A stretch of 19,661 nt of DNA from Candidatus Iainarchaeum sp. (GTDB lineage: Archaea > Iainarchaeota > Iainarchaeia > JAADDC01), in contig JASUTF010000016.1 in NCBI GenBank assembly GCA_030445695.1, forward strand, positions 1-19,661. The letters run 5' to 3'. This document shows, one piece after another, positions 3,239 to 3,625 of this stretch (position 1 is the stretch's first letter; the number at the start of each line of letters is the position of its first letter). Both the position numbers and the translations under genes were made by a program. The notes beneath the pieces were generated by a model. That model worked only from the letters and a program-made list of their open reading frames with translations. It ran no database searches and was not told where the DNA came from.

Positions 3239-3259
3239 GGTTCTGAATTGTGTCGGAAG

Positions 3260-3268
3260 TTTTAAGAT
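3260..3268 (-). promoter_or_regulatory. TATA-like box for prenyl synthase
   Basis: The minus strand reads ATCTTAAAA, centred 26 bp before the ATG at 3238. This supports both that start and a leaderless mRNA. Confidence 0.55.
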
Positions 3269-3288
3269 CGTTGAGGGGGCTATTCGAC

Positions 3289-3294
3289 AAAAAA
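3289..3294 (-). terminator. oligo-T terminator of tRNA-Leu
   Basis: On the minus strand a run of six T follows the tRNA-Leu 3' end by about 28 bases, and a TTTT lies just before it. Archaeal RNA polymerase terminates at such T tracts. The element also lies upstream of the prenyl synthase promoter. Confidence 0.4.
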
Positions 3295-3322
3295 CGGTTT
3301 TATCTACCTGATTTTGGAGGAG

Positions 3323-3406
3323 TGCGGGGGCGGGGATTCGAACCCCGGGAGGCACTAAGCCACCGGATCCTAAGTCCGGCCCCTTTGGCCGCTCGGGCAC
3401 CCCCGC
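3323..3406 (-). tRNA. tRNA-Leu(UAG)
   Basis: A class II tRNA of 84 nt. On the minus strand the acceptor GCGGGGG (3406-3400) pairs with CCCCCGC (3330-3324), with discriminator A at 3323. The anticodon stem is CCGGA/TCCGG and the loop CTTAGGA gives anticodon TAG (Leu). The extended variable arm can form GGC/GCC. The T stem is CGGGG/CCCCG with loop TTCGAAT. There is no intron. Its first 14 bases plus one flanking base are repeated 123 bp upstream (see the hairpin array). Confidence 0.96.
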
Positions 3407-3407
3407 A
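3393..3407 (-). repeat. 15-bp direct repeat, copy 1 (5' end of tRNA-Leu)
   Basis: The plus-strand run TCGGGCACCCCCGCA covers the first 14 bases of tRNA-Leu plus one flanking base. An exact copy lies at 3516-3530 in the same orientation. The two copies bound 108 bp of hairpin-rich DNA. Confidence 0.85.
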
Positions 3408-3515
3408 CCAGATTCTCTGGTGGCGCGAACGCGCCTGCGGGTTTACAACCCGCACCCACAACTGTGCGTCCGATCGTCAGATCGGGCCCGCGGCTCGCCA
3501 GCCGCGTACCGGCTG
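3407..3515. repeat. array of short perfect hairpins upstream of tRNA-Leu
   Basis: Successive inverted repeats sit with little or no spacing: 3407-3421 (ACCAGA/TCTGGT), 3422-3435 (GGCGC/GCGCC), 3436-3454 (TGCGGGTT/AACCCGCA), then a weak 4-bp CACA/TGTG at 3457-3466, then 3470-3485 (CCGATC/GATCGG) and 3489-3506 (CGCGGCT/AGCCGCG). Stems are 5-8 bp with loops of 3-4 bases. The sequences differ from one another, so this is not a simple tandem repeat. No convincing reading frame or complete tRNA is present. The remaining gap to the winged-helix gene holds the repeat copy and promoters. Structure is seen directly; function is unknown. Confidence 0.75.
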
Positions 3516-3530
3516 TCGGGCACCCCCGCA
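3516..3530 (-). repeat. 15-bp direct repeat, copy 2 (orphan tRNA-Leu 5' end)
   Basis: This is an exact copy of the tRNA-Leu 5' end. It is not followed by a foldable tRNA body: no matching CCCCCGC acceptor strand occurs before the real tRNA-Leu. Confidence 0.85.
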
Positions 3531-3559
3531 GCCCCTCCATTTCCTGGCCGGCGGGAAGC

Positions 3560-3568
3560 GTTATATTG
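3560..3568 (-). promoter_or_regulatory. TATA-like box pointing into the hairpin array and tRNA-Leu
   Basis: The minus strand reads CAATATAAC, centred near 3564. Normal spacing predicts transcription from about 3538, roughly nine bases before the orphan tRNA 5' copy and far (about 130 bases) from the real tRNA start. No TATA-like sequence is visible in the GC-rich 3407-3530, so this may drive the whole unit. Confidence 0.4.
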
Positions 3569-3625
3569 ATGAGTGTGACTATTTTAATTGGGAACTCTCG
3601 ATTTGCTCTCCAGTTCTGGCAGGGG

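Follow-up and report, generated by a model that had tools for sequence, protein, structure and literature searches.

The window, as we call the whole 19,661-nucleotide stretch of DNA analyzed here, is a contig of a 664-kb archaeal genome that is 88.6% complete. Its open reading frames include what we take to be the genes for RadA, RPA, the exosome, the proteasome, and a class I lysyl-tRNA synthetase. The nearest named relatives are the Micrarchaeota MAGs JALVAT01 and JALTCQ01, together with JAADDH01, which is labelled Diapherotrites; their polyprenyl synthetases are 76–77% identical to that of the window. We refer to the window's genome as G000, to members of the same genus as G001–G004, and to further members of the same family as G005–G009. 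On the minus strand, an array of short hairpins and a partial copy of the tRNA separate an intact tRNA-Leu(UAG) gene from a TATA-like element. The parts of the locus are as follows.

3322–3406, minus strand: intact tRNA-Leu(UAG) gene (Rfam tRNA model, 55.3 bits)
3393–3406, minus strand: inner copy of the tRNA 5′ end, within the intact tRNA-Leu(UAG)
3407–3515, minus strand: hairpin array of about 108 bp, read as an insertion element (folding, hairpin detection, and family matches)
3407–3421, minus strand: right-end hairpin ACCAGA-GAA-TCTGGT, immediately before tRNA +1
3422–3435, minus strand: hairpin GGCGC-GTTC-GCGCC
3436–3454, minus strand: hairpin TGCGGGTT-GTA-AACCCGCA, which recurs near other tRNAs
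3460–3497, minus strand: conserved unit R1, GCSGG-(variable stem-loop)-GCACA (covariance model R1, 44.2 bits)
3470–3485, minus strand: stem-loop of unit R1, a perfect hairpin
3499–3515, minus strand: left-end hairpin CAGCCG-GTACG-CGGCTG, directly adjoining the outer copy (G003 has homologous left modules)
3516–3530, minus strand: outer copy of the tRNA 5′ end (nt 1–14 plus one base), part of a 15-bp exact repeat
3560–3569, minus strand: TATA-like promoter element TCAATATAAC, spaced for a start near the outer copy

The original prediction for this locus, made from the sequence, had described exact direct copies of the first 14 bases of the tRNA plus one on both sides of the block, and the repeat TCGGGCACCCCCGCA is indeed exact at 3393–3407 and 3516–3530. 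The three perfect hairpins said to abut one another (3407–3421, 3422–3435, and 3436–3454) do so exactly; a further one lies at 3470–3485, and the left-end hairpin at 3499–3515 overlaps an alternative pairing, GCGGCT/AGCCGC, at 3490–3505. The count of at least five hairpins agrees with our hairpin-array detector, which found five at the locus against a maximum of three in ten block-shuffled copies of the window. The array folds at −74.2 kcal/mol on the minus strand (z = −4.2) and with a z-score of −5.6 on the plus strand, and none of 200 shuffles folded as well. One detail had to be revised: the supposed 7-base loop TTGTAAA is better read as part of a 7-bp stem, GCGGGTT/AACCCGC, with a 3-nt loop. 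Its resemblance to a tRNA arm is incidental, because in homologous copies the stem persists while its sequence changes.

Related arrays at other tRNA genes

According to the original prediction, copies elsewhere or covarying stems would support a new element or RNA, and both were found. Pieces of the block recur beside tRNA-Val and tRNA-Pro genes in G000, and many copies lie beside tRNAs in other species of the genus. The hairpins at 3436–3454 and 3422–3435 together match elements downstream of tRNA-Val and tRNA-Pro genes (79–86%), and the right-end hairpin recurs before other tRNA genes with altered stems (ACCGGA-GAA-TCCGGT, ACCAT-GAA-ATGGT, and others). By eye, about 20 of the 39 tRNA genes of G000 bear a comparable hairpin block of 60–170 bp.

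These blocks take two forms. In the 5′ form, the tRNA's own 5′ end (nt 1 to ~15) is followed by the hairpin array and then by the intact tRNA; in the 3′ form, the intact tRNA is followed by the array and then by its own 3′ end from the T-loop onwards. We counted own-end copies on both flanks of every tRNA found in G000, with all tRNAs masked and at a fixed threshold, which gave the 5′ form at 12 of 38 tRNAs and the 3′ form at 7 of 38 (two have both; 10 downstream 3′-end copies were seen by eye). When G000, G001, and G003 were pooled, 17 upstream 5′-end copies and 13 downstream 3′-end copies were found in 109 tRNAs, and the wrong-side control gave one match. There were no own-end copies at the 24 tRNAs of class relatives outside the family or at the 20 tRNAs of G005, and many arrays in G003 and G001 have no recognizable own-end copy. 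The same array architecture is present at many tRNAs in several independent assemblies, which argues against an artifact joining two tRNA-Leu copies, an explanation that had been considered for the window. It had also been remarked that a 5′ copy is unusual; this holds for classical integrases, to which the pTN3-like ones are an archaeal exception (PMC8371274), but not for G000, where 5′ and 3′ copies are both common.

The elements at the Arg-ccg, Arg-tcg, Pro-cgg, Pro-ggg, and Ile genes of G000 are 90–96% identical over 91–117 bp, and each of the five is bounded by the terminus of its own tRNA. Thus, the duplicated end is supplied by the target and is not carried by the element. Elements of the 5′ and 3′ types match one another in inverted orientation, and the termini differ among element subgroups. 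The elements have multiplied recently, and they occur in two orientations.

The conserved unit was studied as the module GCSGG-(7–8 bp stem)-GCACA in an alignment of 25 copies. Two-sided changes occur in six of the eight stem pairs, and covariation was 0.557 versus 0.195 in shuffled alignments, for units that had been picked as hairpins. When stretches were selected by the flanking motifs only, 28 of 42 had a perfect stem of at least 6 bp, compared with 0.3% of shuffles. Such compensated stems point either to selection for folding or to template-switch correction of imperfect palindromes. The covariance model identified 86 copies of R1 in G000–G003, 75 of them no more than 300 bp from a tRNA gene (3–4% expected) and 6 of the remaining 11 at contig ends; therefore, the association with tRNAs is close to exclusive. 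Among the class genomes searched, R1 is restricted to the family of the window's genome, with none in 77 genomes outside it.

Insertion junctions and the proposed tRNA precursor

At seven loci, five of the 5′ type and two of the 3′ type, a relative carries an uninterrupted orthologue of the filled gene. In each case, the flank of the empty gene aligns outside the outer copy (z from 5.0 to 16.2) and not with the array (z from −1.3 to 1.0).

Thr-ggt, 5′ type: outer flank z 10.6, inner flank z −0.4; empty in G003
Glu-ctc, 5′ type: outer flank z 13.9, inner flank z −0.1; empty in G000
Gln-ctg, 5′ type: outer flank z 9.5, inner flank z 0.7; empty in G000
Val-cac, 5′ type: outer flank z 9.0, inner flank z −0.5; empty in G000
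Asn, 5′ type: outer flank z 5.0, inner flank z 0.2; empty in G003
Cys, 3′ type: outer flank z 12.3, inner flank z −1.3; empty in G003
Leu-gag, 3′ type: outer flank z 16.2, inner flank z 1.0

G000 and G003 are each empty at some loci that are filled in the other. Since the empty-site flank corresponds to the sequence outside the outer copy, these loci represent insertions with duplication of the tRNA end. As judged by comparison with the uninterrupted genes of relatives, the outer copy is the one joined to the ancestral flank. For the family, then, the early idea that a small insertion had duplicated the tRNA 5′ end is supported, both by empty sites in relatives and by own-end copies at many tRNAs.

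The element sits at the tRNA elbow and has the terminal part of the same tRNA on both sides; one terminal copy completes an intact tRNA, and the other stays outside as a relic. The tRNA-side junction is nearly constant, falling after nt ~15 (D-loop) or before nt ~54 (T-loop) or slightly inside. Where the duplication ends on the far side is variable, ranging from −32 to tRNA +1 on the 5′ side and reaching up to +18 beyond the 3′ end, which differs from a simple transposase footprint. The extremes are locus L056 of G008 (32 nt upstream) and Pro-cgg (18 nt downstream). A perfect case of recent insertion is tRNA-Ser(cga) of G001, where about 34 bp are duplicated around a ~66-bp element. At L056, on contig C54 of this sister-genus genome, a 46-bp stretch is directly repeated upstream of tRNA-Leu(CAA); it comprises an upstream hairpin and the first 14 nt of that tRNA and represents an event of this kind in which the duplication is longer.

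At the window's own locus, we read the outer copy at 3516–3530 as the displaced original 5′ end, duplicated upon insertion; its boundary at tRNA nt ~15 is found likewise in other 5′-type cases. G001 and G003 carry arrays of their own at tRNA-Leu(UAG), and no clean empty site for this gene was found among the relatives compared (G001, G003, and G004). The tRNA-Leu flank of G004 aligns weakly with the outer flank of the window, including part of the TATA-like element (z = 3.1 vs. −0.2 for the inner flank). By family resemblance (duplication of nt 1–14, D-loop junction, common modules, and outside promoter), the window copy is probably an insertion as well.

The TATA-like element at 3560–3569 lies 31–40 nt from the outer copy and ~155 nt from the real tRNA-Leu. 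It had been described as spaced for the outer copy, and the distance is like that in uninterrupted tRNA genes of these genomes, where such elements are mostly 30–50 nt upstream. Of 17 filled 5′-type genes, 9 have a TATA-like element ahead of the outer copy and none has one ahead of the inner tRNA. The A+T fraction at −50 to −25 is 0.56 upstream of the outer copy and 0.28 upstream of the inner one, compared with 0.49 in uninterrupted genes. This placement suggests that the tRNA is made as a precursor with a structured leader of 80–180 nt. The array would then be a long, co-transcribed tRNA leader, as had been conjectured for the window and as the promoter positions, a feature of sequence, now suggest for the family.

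In the mechanism that we propose, the original promoter would drive a precursor consisting of the 5′ copy, the hairpins, and the tRNA, and RNase P would cleave it at the inner 5′ end. The self-contained hairpins would prevent the leader from disturbing tRNA folding, leaving a harmless leader or trailer. Of the 10 family genomes, 8 contain an archaeal RNase P RNA; none was found in the G000 sequence searched. Genuine outer copies diverge while inner ends match their orthologues, indicating that the functional copy is the inner one. For most precursors, ViennaRNA predicts pairing between the outer copy and the tRNA 3′ end, but it does the same with shuffled arrays; the pairing thus reflects the linear multiloop energy model, which favors outer closure.

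Nature and spread of the elements

We consider it probable, at about 77%, that the segment belongs to a family of small (about 60–180 bp), noncoding insertion elements composed of abutting perfect hairpins, which enter the tRNA genes of one Micrarchaeota family, duplicate tRNA ends, and are most likely selfish or near-neutral and non-autonomous. They would be moved by a putative enzyme or by a recombination process that duplicates target sequence. Because the gene must remain intact, the survivors would be only those insertions whose duplication covers the whole tRNA end. We place them among the small palindromic mobile elements, and there is a real chance that their insertion process is new. 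More tentatively, they may form an undescribed class of archaeal mobile element that has only RNA or ssDNA hairpins and amounts to a miniature inhabitant of tRNA precursors. A putative enzyme would move it, recognizing the elbow on the D-loop or T-loop side in nearly all tRNA genes and duplicating the tRNA terminus upon insertion.

The strongest alternative to such an undiscovered enzyme is that recombination or template switching carries the arrays from one tRNA locus to another, with no dedicated transposase. The blocks GTAGCTCAG and GGTTCGAATCC would prime a switch into the array of another tRNA, and the copy would return upstream of the recipient, duplicating its end. This would account for junctions at the edges of the best conserved tRNA blocks, for the near-identity of elements within a genome, and for the variable length of the duplication, and palindrome correction could maintain perfect hairpins. 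It would also agree with our enzyme search, which covered PF00589, Cas1, Y1, and reverse transcriptase in incomplete genomes: none of the four turned up in G000, G001, or G003. The Y1/HUH transposase family PF01797 was absent from all 10 family genomes. Within the family, reverse transcriptase matches occur only in G002, where the two matches (L243 and L244, on contigs C1 and C8) lie in very long open frames of 1607 and 1876 codons. We still regard template switching as rather unlikely, since each event needs two switches, the acceptors differ (Asn, Thr, Gly, Ile, Pro, Leu, and Glu) and yet the inner acceptor strand is in every case that of its own tRNA, and some junctions (Leu and Val of the 3′ type) lie away from long homology.

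A fixed elbow-side crossover with a displaced terminal fragment is also the classical picture for a tyrosine recombinase, whose mini integrative elements would use part of the tRNA as the att site, reconstitute the tRNA, and leave the displaced fragment outside (a 5′ half as in pTN3-like elements, or classically a 3′ end). Archaeal pTN3-like integrases do use the 5′ half (PMC8371274), and PF00589 proteins are encoded in G002, G005, and G007. This explanation is nevertheless improbable: the element-rich G000 (88.6% complete), G001, and G003 have no PF00589 match, of the three relatives with PF00589 genes, only G005 has a tRNA close to that gene (one tRNA-Phe; none in G002 or G007), and no R1 unit was found beside the PF00589 and Cas1 genes of relatives. 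Near-identical elements at different tRNAs, each with its own terminus, further indicate that the fragment comes from the target. We give a distinctly low probability to the arrays being maintained by selection within tRNA precursors as regulators of transcription, processing, or stability. The strong association with tRNAs, the predicted co-transcription, and the compensatory stem changes would suit such a host RNA, but not all tRNA genes bear arrays, species differ in which genes are filled, orthologues do without them, and both sides and both orientations occur. Moreover, Rfam 15 gave only tRNA matches above the gathering score, and no known structured RNA family fits the array. Finally, the outer copy is a partial tRNA that ViennaRNA pairs with the tRNA 3′ end, which could recall a decayed tandem tRNA copy, a permuted or split tRNA, a tRNA intron, or an assembly artifact. 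These are hardly credible here: nothing interrupts the inner tRNA-Leu gene, which is complete; no tRNA body lies in the hairpin block, and unrelated tRNAs carry nearly the same block; shuffled arrays pair in the same way; and several independent assemblies agree. The decayed tRNA-like element of the original prediction is not supported.

Viruses and plasmids classically land in tRNA genes; such elements are large and bring an integrase. Tyrosine-integrase elements, including the pTN3-like ones (PMC8371274), share with ours the tRNA target, the restored tRNA, and the displaced terminal fragment, but they are kilobases long, encode an integrase, and have one or few targets each, whereas our elements are about 100 bp, noncoding, and present in about half of the tRNA genes. 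Casposons (PMC4046053) are likewise archaeal, have direct repeats (median 15 nt), and in some cases adjoin tRNA genes; they differ in being kilobase elements with Cas1, PolB, and terminal inverted repeats and in overlapping only the last 4–7 nt of the tRNA, compared with 108 bp without coding capacity in the window and no Cas1 in G000. The Dada transposons of fish and protists (PMC8869645) insert inside tRNA genes, at the A-box region (nt 8–13), but they are eukaryotic, encode a transposase, and disrupt the tRNA with a 6–7 bp duplication, whereas here the tRNA is intact and at least 15 bp are duplicated. Bacterial REP elements, with their RAYT transposases (PMC3733652), are also small dispersed palindromes with covarying stems and arrays. 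REPs, however, lie in dispersed extragenic DNA and are linked to Y1 transposases, unlike our units with their proximity to tRNA genes in a family whose ten genomes gave no Y1 match.

The mobile palindromic GC clusters (yeast GC42, PMC4478555) and repetitive hairpin elements (RHE, PMC2800124) of fungal, algal, and sponge mitochondria are similar in that short GC-rich hairpins occur singly or merged in arrays, presence is polymorphic, stem changes are complementary, and no transposase is known. Our elements are mobile and GC-rich with insertion polymorphism, as in those systems, a likeness of function for which we claim no sequence homology. In Neurospora, mitochondrial palindromes of this kind flank tRNA genes (Yin et al. 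1981, as cited in that literature). GC clusters and RHE make 2–3 bp duplications, mostly in intergenic DNA; here, by contrast, the host is archaeal, insertion is into tRNA genes, and at least 15 bp of the tRNA end are duplicated. In the open-access full-text literature, a corpus that leaves most subscription journals outside its coverage, we found no description of archaeal hairpin elements that duplicate tRNA ends. A search for virus-borne copies with the exact right-end pattern gave no match, and a single pattern match to the unit on a phage contig was dismissed as chance (no tRNA; R1 score 12.7).

If our reading is correct, tRNA genes can be colonized by gene-less elements, with a 0.66-Mb genome carrying ~100-bp hairpin arrays at roughly half of its tRNA genes. 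They would constitute a natural experiment on the leader and trailer structure that RNase P and the tRNA 3′-processing enzymes tolerate, and they would point to an undiscovered insertion activity in DPANN archaea. With perfect, compensated stems, pairs of species would allow a test of the long-standing problem of what keeps palindromic mobile elements palindromic, be it selection or correction by template switching.

Several minor observations concern the host genomes. Contigs often break within elements (G000 contig C11 end and C4 start; G001 contig C52; G002 contig C75, C5, and C42 ends), indicating that the repeats at tRNA genes limit assembly, and the element copy number is probably underestimated. 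The tRNA content of the site at window positions 3240–3620 varies among relatives: tRNA-Leu(UAG) is found in the window and in G003, JALVAT01 has a tRNA-Pro/Val/Arg/Ser cluster embedded in hairpin elements (L075), and JAADDH01 has no tRNA beside its polyprenyl synthetase gene (L077). The tRNA genes themselves may be moving together with the hairpin arrays. ARAGORN assigns lengths of 109–142 nt to several G000 tRNA genes (L164, L166, L170, and L173), which suggests that they bear introns; one gene annotated as Gly(ccc), with the acceptor CCGGGGG, may in fact be a tRNA-Tyr with an intron that was misread, given that the corresponding gene of G003 is called Tyr. In the region 1–134, the window itself starts within a tRNA gene that is Ala-like by comparison with G003. 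Its trailer contains a short hairpin (about 63–82) before tRNA-Thr(CGU), at a place where G003 has a full hairpin array.
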